DNA of 64,000 nt, taken from positions 136,220-200,219 of the forward strand of contig NZ_MSGO01000038.1 in assembly GCF_001929375.1 (NCBI RefSeq), in the 5' to 3' direction. The notes beneath the pieces were generated by a model. That model did not search any database, was not told where the DNA came from, and was given only the letters and a program-made list of their open reading frames with translations. This DNA is from Actinomyces oris (GTDB lineage Bacteria > Actinomycetota > Actinomycetes > Actinomycetales > Actinomycetaceae). Shown one piece after another: positions 4,325-15,077 of this stretch. Every line of letters begins with the position of its first letter. Within the stretch, counting starts at the first letter, position 1. The translations under genes and the position numbers were made by a program.

Positions 4325-4849
4325 TTAGCCCGGCAGGCCCAGGAGGCGGCGGGTGTAGATGGCCTGGCCGGAGTGCTGGGCGGCGTCGTCGATGACCGAA
4401 GCGAGGCGGACAGCCCGGGTGACGGGTGGGTCCCAGGAGTCGTCGACGATGTCGTCGAGCGTCTCCGGGGTGAGGGAGCGCAGGTAGGTGGTGGCCAGGG
4501 CGTAGGCGTCGTCGAGGTAGGAGAAGAGGAGGCTGAGGTCGCTGACGATGACCTGGGCTGCCTGTTCGGGTGTGTGGTGCCAGTCCTCGGTGTCGTCGGG
4601 CAGGGGCAGGGCGAAGCGCTCGCGGTGGCCGCCGGTGACCCAGACGGGCTCGACGCCCGCCAGGGGCGCGACCTGGATGTCGAGCTCTCGGGCCGTGTGC
4701 CAGGCCAGCCAGGTCAGGGAGTCGATGCGGGGCGCCAGGTCCGGGGCGGGCCGGGTGTTGGCCTGCTCGAGCGTGACGCCGTCGAAGGCGCGGTCGAAGC
4801 GCTCGCGGGACCGGGACAGGACGTCAATGAGCATCTCAAGAGTTGTCAT
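4325..4849 (-). CDS. DinB/DUF664-fold thiol-dependent enzyme, substrate unknown
   Basis: 174 residues with the DinB-like four-helix architecture, related to mycothiol- and bacillithiol-dependent transferases. Likely metal-binding histidines lie in LAWHTAREL (around residue 51) and DDAAQHSGQ near the C terminus, the positions expected for the family, along with the N-terminal helix pattern of DUF664 proteins. No signal peptide or membrane segment. Members usually handle detoxification with low-molecular-weight thiols, but the substrate cannot be read from sequence. TAACCT sits five bases before the ATG, suggesting a near-leaderless mRNA. It shares a terminator with nagA. Confidence 0.7.
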   Translation of the reverse strand: MTTLEMLIDVLSRSRERFDRAFDGVTLEQANTRPAPDLAPRIDSLTWLAWHTARELDIQVAPLAGVEPVWVTGGHRERFALPLPDDTEDWHHTPEQAAQVIVSDLSLLFSYLDDAYALATTYLRSLTPETLDDIVDDSWDPPVTRAVRLASVIDDAAQHSGQAIYTRRLLGLPG

Positions 4850-7096: not shown

Positions 7097-7912
7097 CTAG
7101 TACTTGCGCAGGTTGAGCCTCGGCGCGCCGAACCACCGGCCGCGCAGAAGCTCGCTGATGTCGAGCATGAGAGCGGTCAGACGGGTCGTGTCATCGCCCA
7201 GCGCCCGGGCGATGAAGCCGGGTCCCTGCACCCGCGTCACTGCCCCGCGCACGTCGTCGACCTCCAGCATCTGGGCCGCCTCATTGACCAGGGCGGCATC
7301 GACCCGGGCGTCGAGCGCCGTGAAGGAGGCCAGGTGGCTGTGCCCCTCCAGGCCTCCCAGGCCCGCCAGCCCGGCCTCACCGGGGACCAGGCGCAGGTTG
7401 TCGACGACGGCGCACCGGCCACCGACTCGGATGTCAGTGCGCATCCGCACGCAGTCGTAGCCGAAGGCCGAACCGTCCGGGGCCCATCCGGGGGTGAGGA
7501 CCTCCAGGGACATGAAGGTCGCCGTCGGGTCCATCTCAACCAGGGTGGTCTGCCGGTAGGAGGACTCCCGGTAGGCGATGACCTGGTCGGGAACGAGCTC
7601 CAGCAAGGCCCGGGGCCCCAGGCTCACCCGGGTGTCCTGGCGGACCGGGCAGGTGGGGGTGCGGTAGATCTTCGTGGCCGCCTGGGTCGTCAGCACCGCC
7701 GAGGCCCCCTGGAGGACCTCGACCTCGGTGAGATAGGAGTCGCCGTCCAGGTACCCGCCTCCGGGATTGACCACGTAGTAGGTCACCTGCCCGGTCTCAT
7801 CGAGGTACAGCGGGCGGAACACCCTCAGTGCTCCCCGGTGGTACTGCTCGACGGCGGTACTCCGGTCCCCGCCCCGGGCGATCCGCAGGTGCAGCTCGCC
7901 GGTGGTGCTCAC
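7097..7912 (-). CDS. ureD: Urease accessory protein UreD (UreH)
   Basis: A scaffold protein that binds apo-urease and recruits UreF and UreG for nickel insertion. With the GTG start at 7912 the protein has 271 residues. This start was chosen because it forms a GTGA overlap with the ureG stop and begins at the conserved region ([12 protein letters not shown]). A longer version from 7951 would run well into ureG. Family features include [14 protein letters not shown] and the TQAATKIYR motif. It is the last accessory gene of the ABCEFGD order. Confidence 0.93.
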
Positions 7913-8586
7913 GGCTCCAGGTCCGTCATGAGCACGTCGTGGTGGATCCACTCGATGACCTGCTCCAGGCCCTCGTCGGTCTTGAGGTTGGTGAAGCAGA
8001 AGGGCTTGTCACCTCGGAACACCTTGGAGTCGGCCTCCATGACCGCCAGGTCGGCGCCGACGTGAGGGGCCAGGTCCGTCTTGTTGATGACGAACAGGTC
8101 GGACTTGATCATCCCCTGACCGGCCTTGCGGGGAATCTTCTCGCCCTGGGCGACGTCGATGACGTAGATGGAGAAGTCGACCAGCTCGGGGGAGAAGGTG
8201 GCCGAGAGGTTGTCGCCTCCCGACTCCACGAACACCACCTCCAGGTCGGGGTGGCGCTCCACCAGCTCGGCGATCGCCGCCTCGTTCATGGAGGTGTCCT
8301 CACGGATGGCCGTGTGCGGGCAGCCCCCGGTCTCCAGCCCGACGATGCGGTCCACCGGCAGGACCCCCTGGGCTGCGAGGATCTTGGCGTCCTCGATCGT
8401 GTAGATGTCGTTGGTGACGGCGGCCATGGAGACCTCCCGGCTCATGGCCCGGGTGATGCGCTCGATGAGCTGGGTCTTGCCGGCCCCCACCGGGCCGCCC
8501 ACTCCGATACGGACCGGACCGGGGTGGGAGCGGGGCGCCGGCCGCCCGGGCGCATCCGCGTTCTCCTGGCTGGTTGCTGCTGACAT
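7909..8586 (-). CDS. ureG: Urease accessory GTPase UreG
   Basis: A 225-residue SIMIBI-class GTPase that delivers nickel to urease using GTP. It has the P-loop GPVGAGKTQ at about residues 31-39, the metal-binding CPH triad in [11 protein letters not shown], the ESGGDN motif and the guanine-specificity motif NKTDL. A roughly 25-residue proline-rich N-terminal extension precedes the conserved core. It overlaps ureD by four bases and lies 34 bases downstream of ureF, with a ribosome site (GAGGAG) before its ATG. Confidence 0.97.
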
Positions 8587-8620
8587 GCGATTCTCCTCAA
8601 TTGCTCTTCAGGAAGGTCTT

Positions 8621-9364
8621 TCAGGACATGAACATGCGGGCGCGCTGGCGCTCGTGCCGCATCTGGCTGATCTCGATCCCGGGCGCGGCGGCCCCCAGAT
8701 CCGTCTCGTCGAGGCCCCCGATCCGCCTGACTGCGGCGTAGACGTCCTCGCGCACCGAGGCGATGGCGCGCTGACCGGCGTCCTGCCCCAGGGGGATGGC
8801 TCGTACGGCGTTCTGCGTCAGTGAGACGACACTGGACTGGAGGTGGGCCGCCGTGACCGCCGCCGGCGGCGCCGCCAGCGCGTAGCCGGCGATCGCCAGC
8901 ACGATGGCGGGGTGGGAACGGCAGCCCCCGGTGTCCACGAGCGTCGCATAACGGCTCAGCAGCCTGTCGCCGTCGGTGCCTTCCAGGGCCAGGCGGGCGA
9001 TGGTGAGCAGCCGCCGTCCCATCGTCACTCCGGCCCGGCGCACCTGGATCGGCACCGCCTGAGCCACGAGGAGCTCGTCGAGGTGCGCGATCGCCTCCCA
9101 GTCGTCGGCCGCCACCGCCTCGAAGGCCAGCCTCAGCCCCAGCCCCTCGGAGAAGGTCAGCTGGGTGGACACGAGCGCGCGCAGCCAGGACACGAAGGAG
9201 GCCTCGCCGTCCACGACGCCCTCGCAGATGTAGGTCTCCAGCCCGAAGGAGTGGGAGAAGGCGCCCGTGGGCAGGGCGGAGTCGCACAGCTGGGCCAGCG
9301 GCAGCTGCCAGCCGGCGGGCTCGCCCCACTGCGGGTCGGGGGTGTCAGTGAGTGTGCTCGGCAT
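8621..9364 (-). CDS. ureF: Urease accessory protein UreF
   Basis: 247 residues. UreF acts in the UreDFG complex and gates GTPase-coupled nickel delivery. Family motifs are LPTGAFSHSFGLE near the N terminus and the C-terminal AVRAIPLGQDAGQR. The ATG at 9364 was chosen because the conserved sequence begins just after it and it overlaps the ureE 3' end by 20 bases, as is usual for tightly packed urease operons. Confidence 0.94.
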   Translation of the reverse strand: MPSTLTDTPDPQWGEPAGWQLPLAQLCDSALPTGAFSHSFGLETYICEGVVDGEASFVSWLRALVSTQLTFSEGLGLRLAFEAVAADDWEAIAHLDELLVAQAVPIQVRRAGVTMGRRLLTIARLALEGTDGDRLLSRYATLVDTGGCRSHPAIVLAIAGYALAAPPAAVTAAHLQSSVVSLTQNAVRAIPLGQDAGQRAIASVREDVYAAVRRIGGLDETDLGAAAPGIEISQMRHERQRARMFMS

Positions 9365-9836
9365 GACGGAAGGGGACGGGCATGGACCGTTCCATCCGCG
9401 CGTGACGCACCCCCAGGTGCTCCAGGTAGTGCTCGGCGGTGTGGTCGTACTGGATGACCATGACGCCGTCATGCCCCTCAAGGCCCGGGAAGGGCTCCTC
9501 GGGGCCGAAGAACTGGGCGGGCAGGTGCCGGTTGCCCAGGTTGTGGGCGACGACCCCCATCTCGCGCACCGTGGCGGGCGCGATGACCAGGACGTCGGTG
9601 GGCTCCAGGCGCACGACGACGATTCCGCGCTCGTTGCGAAGCAGGATGTCTCCCTCGCGCAGGTCCGGTGCGCCCGGCGCGAGCCGGATGCCGAGCTCGG
9701 TGCCGTGGTCGGAGCGCACTCGTTGGATGCGTTTCGTGAGATCGGCCAGAGGGAGGACCACGCTCTCAACGTGCACGTCCTCCAGGTCCTCGCCGGGCAG
9801 GTCGTGGATATTGCCTGAGATGGACTCGATGATCAT
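9345..9836 (-). CDS. ureE: Urease nickel metallochaperone UreE
   Basis: 163 residues. UreE binds nickel and passes it to UreG. The N-terminal domain contains the SDHGTELGIRL stretch, and the C-terminal domain carries the metal-site histidine in GNRHLPAQF. The tail ends HAEHTH, a short histidine-containing end instead of the long His-rich tails of some UreE proteins, so nickel storage capacity is probably modest. It lies 21 bases after ureC and overlaps ureF. Confidence 0.94.
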   Translation of the reverse strand: MIIESISGNIHDLPGEDLEDVHVESVVLPLADLTKRIQRVRSDHGTELGIRLAPGAPDLREGDILLRNERGIVVVRLEPTDVLVIAPATVREMGVVAHNLGNRHLPAQFFGPEEPFPGLEGHDGVMVIQYDHTAEHYLEHLGVRHARMERSMPVPFRHAEHTH

Positions 9837-9857
9837 GAAGGCTCCAGGATTGAGAGA

Positions 9858-11570
9858 TCAGAAGAGGAAGTAGCGCTGGGCCATGGCCAGGACCTGGGCG
9901 GGCTCGCAGGTGATCTTCTCGCCGTCGACGGTGACCTCGTAGGTCTCGGGATCGACGGTGAGCACCGGAGTGGCGTCGTTGAAGGCCATGTCCGCCTTCG
10001 TCAGCCGCCTGACCCCGCGGGCCGGGCAGATCTTCTTGCGCAGCCCCAGGCTCTGGGGCACTCCCGCGTCGATGGCCGCCTGGGACATGAAGGTGATCGA
10101 GTTCGACGCCGGCGCCGTCCCGTAACCGCCGAACATGGTGCGCATGAGCGTGGGCTCGGGGGTGGGGATCGAGGCGTTGGCGTCACCCATGACCGCCGAG
10201 GCGATCTGGCCGCCCTTGAGGATCAGGGACGGCTTGACCCCGAAGAAGGCGGGGTCCCACAGCACCAGGTCGGCCCACTTGCCCACCTCCACGCTGCCCA
10301 CGACCTCGGCGATCCCGTTGGTGCGGGCCGGGTTGATCGTGTACTTCGACACGTAGCGCTTGATGCGCAGGTTGTCGCCGCCCTGCGGGTCCCCGGCGAG
10401 CCTGCCGCGCGCCTTCTTCATCTGGTCGGCCACCTGCCAGGTGCGGATGACGACCTCGCCGACACGCCCCATGGCCTGGGAGTCCGACGACGTCATCGAG
10501 AACACGCCCAGGTCGTGCAGCACGTCCTCGGCCGCGATCGTCTCCGGACGGATACGCGAGTCGGCGAAGGCGACGTCCTCCGGGATGGCGGGGTTGAGGT
10601 GGTGGCACACCATGAGCATGTCGAGATGCTCCTCAGCGGTGTTGCGCGTGAAGGGCAGCGTCGGGTTGGTCGAGGACGGCAGGATGTTGGGGTCCTGCGC
10701 CAGGGTGATGATGTCGGGGGCATGGCCGCCGCCGGCGCCCTCGGTGTGGAAGGTGTGGATGACCCTCCCGCCGATCGCGCGGCGGGTGTCCTCAACGAAG
10801 CCGCACTCGTTGAGCGTGTCGGTGTGGATGGCCACCTGCACGTCGAACTCGTCGGCGACCTTGAGGGCCTCGTCGATGACGGCGTGCGTGGCGCCCCAGT
10901 CCTCGTGGATCTTGAAGCCGACCGCACCGGCGCGCAGCTGCTCGGCCAGAGGCTCCCGGGTCGAGGCGTGGCCCTTGCCCAGCAGGCCGATATTCATGGG
11001 GAAGTCCTCGACGGCCTGGAGCATGCGGGCCAGGTTCCACGCCCCGGGGGTGATCGTGGTGGCGTTGGTGCCGTCGGCGGGTCCTGTCCCTCCTCCGATC
11101 ATGGTGGTCACCCCCGAGGCCAGGGCGGTGGCGACCTGGGTGGGGGAGATGAAGTGAATGTGGGAGTCGATGCCTCCGGCCGTCAGGATGCGGTGCTCGC
11201 CGGCGATCACCTCCGTGGAGGCGCCGATGACGATGTCGACATCGTCCATGATGTCCGGGTTGCCCGCAGCGCCGATAGCGCTGATGACGCCGTCGCGGAT
11301 GGCGACGTCGGCCTTGTAGATGCCGGTGTGGTCGATGATGATCGCGTTGGTGATGACGGTGTCGGGGATGCCCTCGTCCCGCGTGCGCTGGCCGTTGTGG
11401 CCCATACCGTCACGGATGACCTTGCCGCCTCCGAAGACGGCCTCGTCACCACGGTGGGTCAGGTCCCGCTCGATCTGGGCGAAGAGGTCGGTGTCGGCCA
11501 GGCGGACGGCGTCCCCGGTGGTGGGGCCGTACAAGGCGGCATGCTCCCGACGGCTGAGTTCCTTGCTCAT
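9858..11570 (-). CDS. ureC: Urease alpha subunit, catalytic
   Basis: A 570-residue nickel amidohydrolase that hydrolyses urea to ammonia and carbamate. All active-site elements are visible: H137 and H139 (DSHIHF), carbamylated K220 (FKIHEDWG), H249 and H275, the flap C322-H323 (MVCHHLNP) and D363 (SSDSQAMG). Length is typical. It lies 17 bases after ureB with its own ribosome site. In oral Actinomyces the ammonia produced raises plaque pH and supplies nitrogen (family knowledge). Confidence 0.98.
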
Positions 11571-11587
11571 GATGTGCTCCTGTGCTC

Positions 11588-11899
11588 TCAGCCCTCGACC
11601 GGGCCGTTCGTCTCGCCTGCCAGTCCGAAGACTCGTCGCGCTCCCGCCAGCGCCACCAGGCGGACTGGTCGGGAGTCGCCCGGCTCGAAGCGAACCGCGG
11701 TTCCGGCCGGAATGTCGAGGCGGAAACCACGAGCGGCCCGCCGGTCGAAGGACAGCGCGGAGTTGACCTCGGCGAAGTGGAAGTGCGAACCGACCTGAAT
11801 GGGACGGTCCCCGGTGTTGATGACGTCGAGACGGAGGGTGGGGCGGCCCTCGTTGATGGTGATGGTGCCGCCCGCGAGTCGGTACTCTCCGGGGATCAT
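11588..11899 (-). CDS. ureB: Urease beta subunit
   Basis: A 103-residue structural subunit that packs with UreA and UreC in the (ABC)3 enzyme. Conserved features include MIPGEYRL at the start, [20 protein letters not shown] and the [10 protein letters not shown] motif. Separate A and B chains, rather than the fused form of Helicobacter, are the common bacterial arrangement. The start overlaps the ureA stop by four bases (ATGA). Confidence 0.97.
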
Positions 11900-12210
11900 G
11901 GCAGCCTCCTGCGAATCGGGTCGTGGACGGAGACGAGCTTGGTCCCGTCGGGGAAGGTCGCCTCCACCTGGACCGCGCGGATCATCTCGGGGACTCCCTC
12001 CATGACGTCGTCGTAGGTCAGCAGGGTGGTCCCGTAGGCCATGAGATCCGTGGCAGTGCGCCCTTCGCGGGCCCCCTCGAGGATCTCAGCGGTGATGTAG
12101 GCGACTGCCTCGGGGTGATTGAGACGGATGCCCCTGTCCTTGCGTCTTCGTGCCAGGTCTGCGGCGACGACGATGAGTAGCTTCTCCTGCTCACGAGGGG
12201 TGAGGTGCAT
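11896..12210 (-). CDS. ureA: Urease gamma subunit
   Basis: A 104-residue urease subunit, first gene of the operon. The start at 12210 was chosen because the family N terminus [12 protein letters not shown] begins there and a GGGAGAG ribosome site precedes it; an in-frame ATG at 12288 would add 26 residues absent from the family. Conserved blocks include [21 protein letters not shown] and [14 protein letters not shown]. ureB overlaps its stop. A candidate promoter with a palindrome lies upstream at 12278-12316. Confidence 0.96.
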
Positions 12211-12277
12211 CGGGGCTCTCCCAGAGACGGTTCTAAGCGGGCGCATAGGCGCGAGCTTGTCCGCACACGACGGACGC

Positions 12278-12316
12278 TTTATAGGCAATGCCTGGCATGT
12301 TGCGGAAATATTTCCG
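12278..12316 (-). promoter_or_regulatory. Candidate urease promoter with 14-base perfect palindrome
   Basis: On the minus strand a weak -35 (TTCCGC, 12307-12302) and a -10-like TATAAA (12283-12278) are 18 bases apart. The perfect palindrome CGGAAATATTTCCG (12303-12316) overlaps the -35 and so looks like an operator. The next dyad, ATGCC and GGCAT around 12289-12299, lies in the spacer. The regulator is unknown; nitrogen or nickel control is possible. No other feature was seen in the gap 12211-12441. Confidence 0.45.
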
Positions 12317-12441: not shown

Positions 12442-12477
12442 AGGGCCGGGATGCGTGCTGATGCGCATCCCGGCCCT
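12442..12477 (-). terminator. Terminator of the cysteine-free ribosomal protein operon
   Basis: Perfect 14-base inverted repeat (12442-12455 and 12464-12477) with an 8-base loop, 20 bases past the rpmJ stop. It is followed on the minus strand by a short T-rich run (CTTTTCCTC). Confidence 0.75.
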
Positions 12478-12496: not shown

Positions 12497-12619
12497 TCAG
12501 CCCTGGCGGGCCTTGAGACGGGGGTTCTTCTTGTTGATGACGTAGGTGTGGCCGCGGCGTCGGACCACCTTGGACCCCGGCTGCTTGGCCAGGGACCGGA
12601 TCGAGGCACGAACCTTCAT
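12497..12619 (-). CDS. rpmJ: 50S ribosomal protein L36, zinc-independent paralogue
   Basis: A 40-residue protein beginning [19 protein letters not shown] and ending RLKARQG. Canonical zinc-binding L36 carries a C-C-C-H ribbon; this copy has no cysteine, so it is the C-minus form made under zinc starvation. The ATG has a good ribosome site (AAAGGAG). It is the last gene of the rpmB-rpmG-rpsN-rpmE-rpmJ series on this strand, followed by a strong terminator. Confidence 0.93.
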
Positions 12620-12698
12620 GCCGGCTCCTTTCCTTCTTCGTGTCCAGTGAGGGCGGTGAGAGATCGAGGGGGCGGGGCTGCGCGCCCCGCCTGTGCGC

Positions 12699-12950
12699 CT
12701 ACCGCTTGCGCTTGCCGTAGCGGCGCTCGAACTTCTCCACCCGGCCGGCCGTGTCCAGGATCTTGCCCTGGCCGGTCCAGAACGGGTGCGAGGCGCTGGA
12801 GACCTCGACGTCGTAGACCGGGTAGGTGTTGCCGTCCTCCCACTCGATGGTCTCCGACGACGTCAGGGTCGAACGGGTCAGGAAGGCGAAGTCGGCGGAC
12901 TTGTCGCGAAAGACGATGGGCTGGTAGCTGGGGTGGATCCCAGGACGCAT
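12699..12950 (-). CDS. rpmE: 50S ribosomal protein L31 type B, zinc-independent
   Basis: An 83-residue type B L31 ([16 protein letters not shown] at the start, [19 protein letters not shown] near the end). The CxxC of zinc-binding L31 is absent. The true start is the ATG at 12950, where the conserved sequence begins, preceded by AAGGAG. A 145-base gap separates it from rpsN and contains a hairpin at 13046-13071, so expression of rpmE-rpmJ may be partly uncoupled from the upstream three genes. Confidence 0.94.
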
Positions 12951-13045
12951 ACGAGCTCCTTGGATGGGGGTGAATGTGAGAACTGACGTGGTGAACGAGT
13001 GCCGGCGGCGGCGCTGCGAGGGGGTGGTTACGACTGCGGCGCGCC

Positions 13046-13071
13046 GCGAGCCCCGGCGGGTGCGGGCTCGC
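13046..13071 (-). terminator. Possible attenuator hairpin between rpsN and rpmE
   Basis: An 8-base inverted repeat (GCGAGCCC at 13046-13053, complement at 13064-13071) with a 10-base loop in the only long gap of the operon. No T tract follows, so it may be an attenuator or processing site. Confidence 0.35.
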
Positions 13072-13095
13072 AGGCCCCGTCCCGCCCGCACCCGC

Positions 13096-13401
13096 CTACC
13101 AGGAGGACTTGACGATGCCCGGCAGCTCGCCGCGCAGCGCCATCTGGCGGAAACGCACCCGGGAGGTCCCGGTGACGCGCAGGTGCCCGCGCGGGCGGCC
13201 GTCGACCGCGTCACGCCGACGCAGGCGAGTGGGGGAGGCGTCGCGCGGCAGCGCGTGCAGCGCCGCCATTGCCTCATCGCGCTCGTCCTGGCTCAGGTGG
13301 GGGTTGACTGAGGTCCGCTTGAGCTCGGCGCGGCGCTCTGCGTAGCGCTCCACCACCTGCTGGCGTCGCAGCTCGGCGGCGATCTTGGACTTCTTGGCCA
13401 T
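13096..13401 (-). CDS. rpsN: 30S ribosomal protein S14, zinc-independent paralogue
   Basis: 101 residues, the long cysteine-free form of S14 (the zinc-binding form is about 61 residues with two CxxC motifs). It ends with the conserved [18 protein letters not shown]. It replaces the zinc-containing copy when zinc is scarce. Its ATG overlaps the rpmG stop by one base, so translation is probably coupled. Confidence 0.96.
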
Positions 13402-13574
13402 CAGCGCGACTCCTTGTACTCCACGTGCCGGCGCACCACCGGATCGAACTTGCGCAGGACCAGCCGGTCGGGGGTGTTGCGGCGGTTCTTACGGGTCACG
13501 TAGGTGTGGCCCGTCCCCGCGGTGGAGACCATCTTGATGATCGGCCGCAGGTCCTTCCCCTTGGCTCCGCTCAT
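13401..13574 (-). CDS. rpmG: 50S ribosomal protein L33, zinc-independent paralogue
   Basis: 57 residues: it starts [18 protein letters not shown] and contains [19 protein letters not shown]. The two CxxC motifs of zinc-binding L33 are missing. The start codon overlaps the rpmB stop (ATGA) and the stop shares a base with the rpsN start, giving a translationally coupled rpmB-rpmG-rpsN set. Confidence 0.95.
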
Positions 13575-13810
13575 GACAGCTTCTCCCCCCGGGCGAGCAT
13601 CTGAGCCACGACGACGTCAATGCCCAGTTTGTCGATCGTGCGGATACCCTTGGCGGACACCGTCAGGCGCACGGTGCGGCCCAAGGATGGCACCCAGTAG
13701 CGCTTGCGCTGCAGGTTGGGGTTCCAGCGCCGGGGTGTGCGCTTGTGGGAGTGGGAGACGGACCGGCCGAAGACAGGCCGGGTCCCCGTGACTTGGCAGT
13801 AGGTGGTCAT
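13571..13810 (-). CDS. rpmB: 50S ribosomal protein L28, zinc-independent paralogue
   Basis: A 79-residue L28 that lacks the paired CxxC zinc motifs; only the common CQVTG cysteine near the N terminus remains. The ATG at 13810 was chosen because [12 protein letters not shown] fits the family, and TATGAT at 13823-13818 lies seven bases upstream, implying a leaderless mRNA. It is the first gene of the zinc-sparing operon, directly behind a Zur-type box. Confidence 0.95.
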
Positions 13811-13817
13811 GACGAGC

Positions 13818-13838
13818 ATCATATAAGAATGATTCTCA
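13818..13838. promoter_or_regulatory. Zur-type operator overlapping the rpmB promoter
   Basis: TAAGAATGATTCTCA (13824-13838) is symmetric apart from one base pair and the centre, and matches the actinobacterial Zur pattern TGAnAATnATTnTCA closely. It directly adjoins the minus-strand -10 TATGAT (13823-13818) and lies 27 bases before the GTG of the divergent Mrf-like gene, so one zinc-loaded Zur dimer could repress both directions. A Zur gene is not in the window. Confidence 0.8.
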
Positions 13839-13865
13839 GTTTCGTCAACTCTGCTGGAGGACCTC

Positions 13866-15077
13866 GTGACCGATCCCTCGGATGACTTTGCCGGCAACTT
13901 CGCTGACATCCCCGGCTCCCCGGCCGCAGCCGGCGGCCGCCACACCCTGGCCGTCATCGGCGCCGTCGACCCCGCCCTGCTGGACCTGGTCGATCTCGCC
14001 CTGGCCGGCCAGGACGCCGTCGTCATCCGCTCCGGGCTCCGCTTCGGCGCCGACGAGGAGGCCGGGAGCGGCGACGCCGCCGACGACCTGGTCCGGCTCG
14101 TCAGCCACAGCTCGGCCGAGGGCTTCGACGACGAACCGGTCACACTTGACGTCCCCATGCCCTTCACCTGCCCCACCTGCTCCCTGCGGGAGGTCCTGGC
14201 CGCCGTCGCCCAGGACCGCGCCGCCCAGGAGCCGGGCGGCACCACTGTCATCCTCCTGCCGGCGGCCATCGAGCTCGCCCACCTCCTGCCCGGACTGGCC
14301 GAGGAGCTCGCCGGCACCGGCGTGAGACTGGCCGGAGCCGGCCACGTCCTGGACGCCACGACCGCCCTGGACGAGCTCCTCGAGCACCGCCTGCTGAACG
14401 CCTTCCCCGGTGACTGTCGCTGCACGGGCGCCGTCCACCTGAACAACCTCGGATACGCCGACGTCGTCCTGGCCCTGGGACGTGACGAGGACCCCGCCGG
14501 GGCCGACCTCATCGAGCACCTGCGCCCTCACGACGCCCTCCTGCTCCCGGGGCTCGACGCGCCCCTCCTGGAGACCCTCGCCTCCCTCACCCACGACGTC
14601 GCCGCCTCCCTGAGCCGCATCCACCCCGCCACCACCAGCGCCTGGGGCGGCCCCGACGAGCACGGCGTGTGGACCCTGGACCTCAGCGCCACCCTGCCCT
14701 TCCACCCCGGACGCCTGCGGTCCCTCGTCGTCGACCTGGCCGGTCAGGGCCTGTGCGCTCGCGGCTGCTTCTGGCTGCCCAGCCGCCCCGGCCGGGTGTG
14801 CACCTGGGAGGTCGCCGGAGGCGCCGTGAGCGTCGGCGACGCCGGAACCTGGGCGGAGGTCCCGGCTACCCCTTCCGCCGCCGGCGACGATGCCGCCGGC
14901 GAGCCCCGCTGCCACCTCGTGGTCACCGGCGTGGGCGATGAGGAGATGCGCGAGCAGGTGCGCCGCGCCTTCGCCCGGATCCTCCTGCGCCCCGAGGAGA
15001 TGGCCCAGGCCCTGGCCTGGATCGGCGCCGACGACGGCCTGGGCGACTGGTTCGGGCAGGAGGACCAGGAGGGCTGA
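13866..15077 (+). CDS. CobW-C-domain protein with CPTC motif and no P-loop (Mrf-like)
   Basis: 403 residues resembling COG0523/CobW proteins but degenerate. Where the GTPase Walker A should be (about 27-36, [10 protein letters not shown]) there is no GxxGxGKT, and no NKxD is present. A CPTC motif lies at 102-105. The C-terminal CobW_C domain (about 270-385) has FHPGRL and [11 protein letters not shown]. This pattern matches mycobacterial Mrf, which with Mpy drives ribosome hibernation in zinc starvation, and whose gene sits with cysteine-free ribosomal protein genes. Here it is divergent from such an operon and shares its Zur box. The GTG start has a CTGGAGG site. Function in this organism is inferred; a metallochaperone role is the alternative. 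Confidence 0.78.

Follow-up and report, generated by a model that had tools for sequence, protein, structure and literature searches.

A candidate zinc-starvation ribosomal protein locus with a predicted relative of mycobacterial Mrf in Actinomyces oris

The closest described counterpart of the locus considered herein is the mycobacterial Mrf locus (MSMEG_6065-6070; Rv0106), in which genes for L28, L33 and S14 proteins of the C-minus type, that is, without zinc-ligand cysteines, face a gene for a COG0523-like protein. According to the available portions of three publications, the M. smegmatis locus is Zur-regulated, with a gene list that includes rpmE2 (L31; PMC7174638); zinc-bound Mrf is turned over by Clp, and Mrf helps the hibernation factor Mpy to bind C-minus ribosomes (a review, PMC13418864); and Rv0106 carries CXSC and neither of the two GTPase motifs (Haas et al. 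2009, PMC2770081). The DNA analysed here, termed the window, is a stretch of 64,000 nt from Actinomyces oris (contig NZ_MSGO01000038.1, positions 136,220 to 200,219), within a genome (G000) of 3.11 Mb in 95 contigs. It carries a minus-strand operon in the order L28-L33-S14-L31-L36, divergent from an open reading frame of 403 aa; this arrangement, described in an earlier note on the same DNA, is confirmed upon re-reading, as are the window coordinates of all the locus genes. The locus is real, well preserved and of a known kind, here in another family, and its 403-aa product is, judged by its sequence, a relative of Mrf that lies outside the curated Mrf family.

Comparison with described loci

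When run on 396 genomes of the phylum, the Mrf model finds matches in 70, with 11 over the cut-off, all from one family (f7). Gene order and the Mrf model suggest that f7 is mycobacterial and that a second family, f6, is Streptomyces-like. None of the 11 Mrfs over the cut-off carries a P-loop, and the same had been published for Rv0106 in 2009 (available portion of PMC2770081). The absence of a P-loop, for which the earlier note had called the window protein divergent, is therefore discarded as the mark of a divergent Mrf, and NCBIfam appears to be mistaken in naming Mrf a ‘GTPase’. Similarly, the expectation of a CPTC motif in Mrf finds no counterpart (0/11), with CVSC, CASC, CVTC, CLSC, CVDC and CATC occurring in its place.

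Besides the facing arrangement of L28, L33 and S14, the window locus has in common with the mycobacterial one the inclusion of L31, and its protein likewise possesses a CxxC site and no GTPase motifs. Differences lie in S18, which is present in 11 of 11 mycobacterial loci and missing from the window locus; in L36, which occurs within 1.5 kb of none of the 11 Mrf genes; and in the position of L31, which lies behind Mrf rather than in an L28-L36 operon as in the window. L36 and L31 had both been put forward as additions; this holds for L36 alone, since rpmE2 also belongs to the M. smegmatis cluster (available portion of PMC7174638). The lack of S18, proposed as a further distinguishing feature, is correct for the locus but signifies nothing new: cysteine is already absent from the one S18 detected in the genome, so that the locus needs no alternative copy, and loss of an S18 copy from the system is rejected as a reading.

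In the Streptomyces-type loci, for which the Zur regulon of S. coelicolor serves as comparison (available portion of PMC6103462), a P-loop-less CACC protein adjoins C-minus L28, S14, L33, L31 and S18 (6/6), whilst the order differs (S14-L28 / L33-L31-Mrf-like-S18) and L36 is again absent within 1.5 kb. As a single sequence, the window protein scores 52 bits to this type, against 28 to an Mrf and 19 to a GTPase. The COG0523/G3E GTPases (YjiA, ZigA, YciC) are set apart from the window protein by its lack of P-loop and NKxD, and lie across the main tree branch from it. With regard to a canonical zinc GTPase elsewhere in the genome, acting in place of the Mrf-like protein, PF02492 gives 27 matches at E-values up to 1, of which one is clear (window 7999-8508); this we take to be UreG (7909-8586, with P-loop) of a urease cluster, and the candidate is rejected. 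Two further matches, on contigs C14 and C10, pass the cut-off only if neighbouring matches in their frame are counted with them, that on C14 presumably being HflX. The putative urease cluster (window ~7097-12288) adjoins the locus.

Ribosomal proteins and the Zur-type box

Each of the five ribosomal proteins exceeds curated NCBIfam and Pfam cut-offs, and stop and start codons overlap at L28-L33 and at L33-S14 (Table 1). Described earlier as cysteine-free throughout, the set is so for L33, S14, L31 and L36; L28 retains a single cysteine, which is kept in all 32 loci of the genus that were counted. The genome search for zinc-binding paralogues proposed in the earlier note is successful for all five: zinc-type copies of L36 (G000:C56:18203), L31 (G000:C79:8008), S14 (G000:C56:11347) and L33 (G000:C8:90869) are found elsewhere, as is an L28 with four cysteines arranged as two CxxC (G000:C14:48719). 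Replacement of ribosomal proteins is thus possible, and the combination of paralogues devoid of zinc-ligand cysteines with zinc-type copies elsewhere is that of a C-minus operon. In the relatives L020/L070 and L085, L28, L33, S14 and L36 are present, with no L31 found in the operon.

A single Zur-type box common to both sides of the locus had been proposed, and a candidate is indeed found in the 55-bp divergent gap. With at most one mismatch to TGANAANNNTTNTCA, it is the only site in 64 kb (TAAGAATGATTCTCA, 13824-13838; 0.09 expected); 9 of 100 shuffles of the window contained such a match, and none of 200 shuffled 55-bp gaps held a site as good. Divergent gaps from several families score at least 8/10 on the motif in 63 of 69 cases, and the best site does no better than 5 % of 200 single-base shuffles in 6 of these gaps. 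One Fur-family protein is found in the genome, and the genes ahead of it can be read as znuA, znuC and znuB, giving an apparent znuABC-zur operon; a second box (TGAGAATGATTCGCA) lies 42 bp ahead of the predicted znuA start. A candidate box at the promoter and a predicted Zur in the genome are what a Zur-controlled C-minus operon would display, and control of the locus by Zur is presumed. Elsewhere, two tandem Zur-type boxes (L062, ~4397-4447; G000:C11:15396-15446) directly precede minus-strand genes that may encode an Opp/Nik-like ABC transporter and substrate-binding protein, a candidate for Zur-controlled zinc or metallophore uptake. A near-palindromic box among genes read as an ECF-type transporter (L061, ~3001; G000:C9:61000) may be due to chance. 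Terminator-like sites number three in the window, against a mean of 0.6 in shuffles, and the one listed in Table 1 has the longest stem.

Table 1. Features of the locus in window coordinates
Feature	Position	Strand	Details
Intrinsic terminator	12442..12477	-	14-pair stem then TCTTTTCCTC, directly 3′ of L36
Zinc-free (type B) ribosomal protein L36, 40 aa, 0 Cys	12497..12619	-	NF002021 71.7 bits (cut-off 70); PF00444
Zinc-free (type B) ribosomal protein L31, 83 aa, 0 Cys	12699..12950	-	NF002462 133.4 bits (cut-off 86)
Zinc-free ribosomal protein S14, 101 aa, 0 Cys	13096..13401	-	NF006477 121.1 bits (cut-off 77)
Zinc-free ribosomal protein L33, 57 aa, 0 Cys	13401..13574	-	NF001860 82.9 bits (cut-off 50)
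Zinc-free ribosomal protein L28, 79 aa, one Cys (C5)	13571..13810	-	TIGR00009 86.1 bits (cut-off 48.3)
Candidate Zur-type box TAAGAATGATTCTCA	13824..13838	.	55-bp gap between divergent L28 and Mrf-like genes; 9/10 motif positions
Mrf-like P-loop-less COG0523-derived protein (predicted), 403 aa, GTG start	13866..15077	+	CPTC 102-105; CobW_C-type domain ~247-375

Motifs and kinship of the Mrf-like protein

As had been read previously, the 403-aa protein displays CPTC at 102-105 and neither GxxxxGK[ST] (Walker A) nor NKxD. Its nearest named relatives are from Actinomyces oris and A. naeslundii (89-93 % identity), and among 11 named Actinomyces relatives Walker A and NKxD are absent throughout, with CPTC in seven and CWTC in four. 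Extending this to 42 Actinomycetaceae rows, which comprise those of at least 200 bits to the window protein other than L131, reveals a P-loop or NKxD in none and CxxC in 41; C186 and C301 (window-protein numbering) are conserved in all 42. Here, as in the trees, identical or contained proteins were removed beforehand. Unlike these rows (0/42), 9 of the 11 Mrfs end in an H-x-D-P-C tail, a feature noticed in the present analysis rather than a published criterion. It is possible, on these patterns, that a second set of metal ligands differs by lineage. A score of 51.8 bits to the Mrf equivalog NF047431 (residues 143-396; curated cut-off 375) means that the window protein is not an Mrf by that definition, whilst it shares with Mrf the CxxC site, the missing P-loop and the C-minus ribosomal protein neighbours.

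The C-terminal domain is of the CobW_C kind that belongs to the COG0523/G3E family: of the 12 proteins in alignment A2, five match Pfam CobW_C (best 4.6e-8), although the window protein itself does not, even at an E-value of 1. Searches of solved structures by sequence returned no match, and the AlphaFold model is poor; no N-terminal match is claimed from it, and a missing match there is no evidence.

In trees, the window protein falls with Mrf and the Streptomyces-type proteins, on the opposite side of the main branch to P-loop COG0523 GTPases. A tree of 50 rows splits 37 Mrf-like from 13 GTPase-side rows with branch support of 99/98. A second set comprises 73 rows, of which 62 are Mrf-like (39 being new) and 11 have a P-loop; here the separating branch has support of 100 in a quick tree, and of 100/100 once everything through the CxxC is removed; restoring three GTPase-side rows omitted from this set (L133, L135 and one of L042) gives 98, again in a quick tree. 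The sampled GTPases are those brought in by the Mrf and A3 searches. A single loss of the P-loop in the Mrf-like group fits these trees but is unproved, because the root was placed on the GTPases.

Two observations call for slightly lower confidence. Profile scores barely separate Mrf-like proteins from GTPases: the Actinomycetaceae alignment matches Mrf at an E-value of 9.6e-20, the Streptomyces type at 9.2e-21 and GTPases at 1.2e-18; for Actinomycetaceae proteins that are more distant, the values are 7.5e-37, 2e-35 and 3.4e-33, respectively; and the Mrf profile matches GTPases at 4.1e-46 and the Streptomyces type at 1.7e-37. Placement with Mrf consequently rests on trees and gene neighbourhood. 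In addition, GTPase-side L133 possesses in its frame neither P-loop nor CxxC, and therefore represents a second loss of the nucleotide site, on the GTPase side. With regard to what the earlier note held might overturn its reading, alignment discloses no intact GTPase site, with Walker A and NKxD both lacking; a kinship closer to zinc metallochaperones than to Mrf is not seen in the trees, whilst the profile scores to both are nearly equal. At L133 itself, an alternative L36 (3742-3861) adjoins the COG0523-like frame that lost both motifs (from 3886).

Distribution, proposed mechanism and alternatives

Family-wide, the protein is matched in 76 of 213 genomes (13 of 36 genera). Within the genus it is present in 37 of 49 genomes and absent from 12, with alternative S14 present and absent in exactly these same genomes; as the genes are neighbours, a small number of events might account for this co-occurrence. 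The Mrf-like gene has all five ribosomal protein genes beside it in 29 of 32 loci of the genus and 14 of 20 from other genera (chosen out of 39 such genomes with a match), flanks being 1.5 kb for 30 of the 32, as for the Mrf and f6 loci. Across the class, a mixed profile matches 142 of 394 genomes, P-loop GTPases being among the matches. In 39 loci picked from these matches over many families, the present locus (L175) not counted and L218 being an empty 100-base placeholder, the main match always lacks a P-loop, and at least one alternative ribosomal protein lies within 4 kb in 30; the nine without such a neighbour are L179, L180, L188, L190, L199, L200, L201, L212 and L217. A further 29 loci, 28 of them from one family, all have an alternative ribosomal protein nearby, and the gene order of the window recurs in L193 and L194, which represent two families of its taxonomic order. 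Such proximity is not exclusive to the Mrf-like group, since 7 of 13 loci around P-loop GTPases also show at least one alternative ribosomal protein, though none shows all five. As far as these searches show, the breadth of P-loop-less proteins accompanying C-minus ribosomal protein genes in the class is the less known part.

The search for an Mpy/HPF partner advocated earlier reveals one HPF in the genome, of the long form (216 aa by gene call), beside a gene that reads as secA; Mpy of M. smegmatis is, we presume, in the same setting. The account considered probable, if not securely so, is that of a Zur-repressed zinc-starvation ribosome locus in which an Mrf-type protein aids HPF in the hibernation of C-minus ribosomes. 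With ample zinc, Zn-Zur on the single box would block both divergent promoters, and falling zinc would derepress both sides. The L28, L33, S14, L31 and L36 made from the operon could then take the place of the zinc-binding copies, releasing zinc from ribosomes. The plus-strand product would be a COG0523-derived scaffold, no longer able to bind nucleotide but with the CxxC metal site and the CobW_C domain retained. By analogy with mycobacterial Mrf, its zinc-loaded form would be turned over, and under severe starvation the zinc-free form might accumulate and help the long HPF to hibernate C-minus ribosomes.

It is rather unlikely, but to be taken seriously, that the zinc-controlled protein works on C-minus ribosomes without recruiting HPF, for instance as an assembly or quality factor or a ribosome-binding zinc sensor. 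The gene is linked to those for C-minus ribosomal proteins and not to HPF, its product is far from Mrf in sequence, and it has its own conserved C186 and C301 instead of the Mrf tail; the trees nonetheless place it on the Mrf side, and Mrf itself, as the precedent, brings an HPF-type protein to the ribosome (available portion of PMC13418864). An ordinary COG0523 zinc metallochaperone GTPase of the ZigA/YciC kind appears highly improbable given that P-loop and NKxD are absent from every one of the 42 Actinomycetaceae rows and that the trees set the window protein apart from P-loop rows. The CobW_C-type domain, a Zur-type box as at many COG0523 genes and a profile score to GTPases almost equal to that for Mrf would suit this explanation, and there is a match to the ZigA model NF038288, albeit of 35.9 bits against a cut-off of 600. 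Hardly any credence is given to a decaying GTPase remnant beside the operon by chance, for all that the nucleotide site is lost, divergence is fast and the match is split in three genus genomes: the ratio of non-synonymous to synonymous substitution (dN/dS) is 0.25-0.44 in six pairs of close relatives, which indicates a gene kept under selection, if loosely; many residues are invariant across 12 relatives, down to 57 % identity; and the gene is present in all 37 genus genomes with alternative S14.

Beyond the hibernation account favoured above for this locus, it is suggested tentatively, and with more reserve, that zinc-gated hibernation by means of an Mrf-type pseudo-GTPase is ancient in the class and not peculiar to mycobacteria. 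The nucleotide site would have been lost once, yielding a zinc-sensing factor that then travelled with C-minus genes across many families, those of Actinomyces, the Streptomyces type and mycobacteria among them, while its metal sites became lineage-specific (CxxC plus HxDPC tail in Mrf, CxxC plus C186/C301 in Actinomycetaceae). Of the wider system of zinc-controlled ribosome remodelling and hibernation envisaged in the earlier note, the sequences bear out a C-minus locus that has a Zur-type box and a P-loop-less, Mrf-related protein and that is distributed more widely in the class, whilst the hibernation part is conjectural. Open-licence literature, by titles and abstract beginnings, contained no Mrf recognised outside mycobacteria, and no Actinomyces work on Zur, zinc and ribosomal proteins was found there, the papers that came up being, by their titles, on other subjects. 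Should the coupling of zinc loss to hibernation by Mrf-type proteins be true outside mycobacteria, it would be general in the class, and laboratory Actinomyces could be used as a second model.

Two minor observations concern individual genomes. The Mrf-like match occurs in pieces in G430 (L131), G431 and G433 (L132), perhaps through frameshifts, inserts or sequencing errors. L039, L041 and L044, which belong to a more distant family, show a P-loop GTPase, alternative L31 and a P-loop-less protein with CLSC next to one another.
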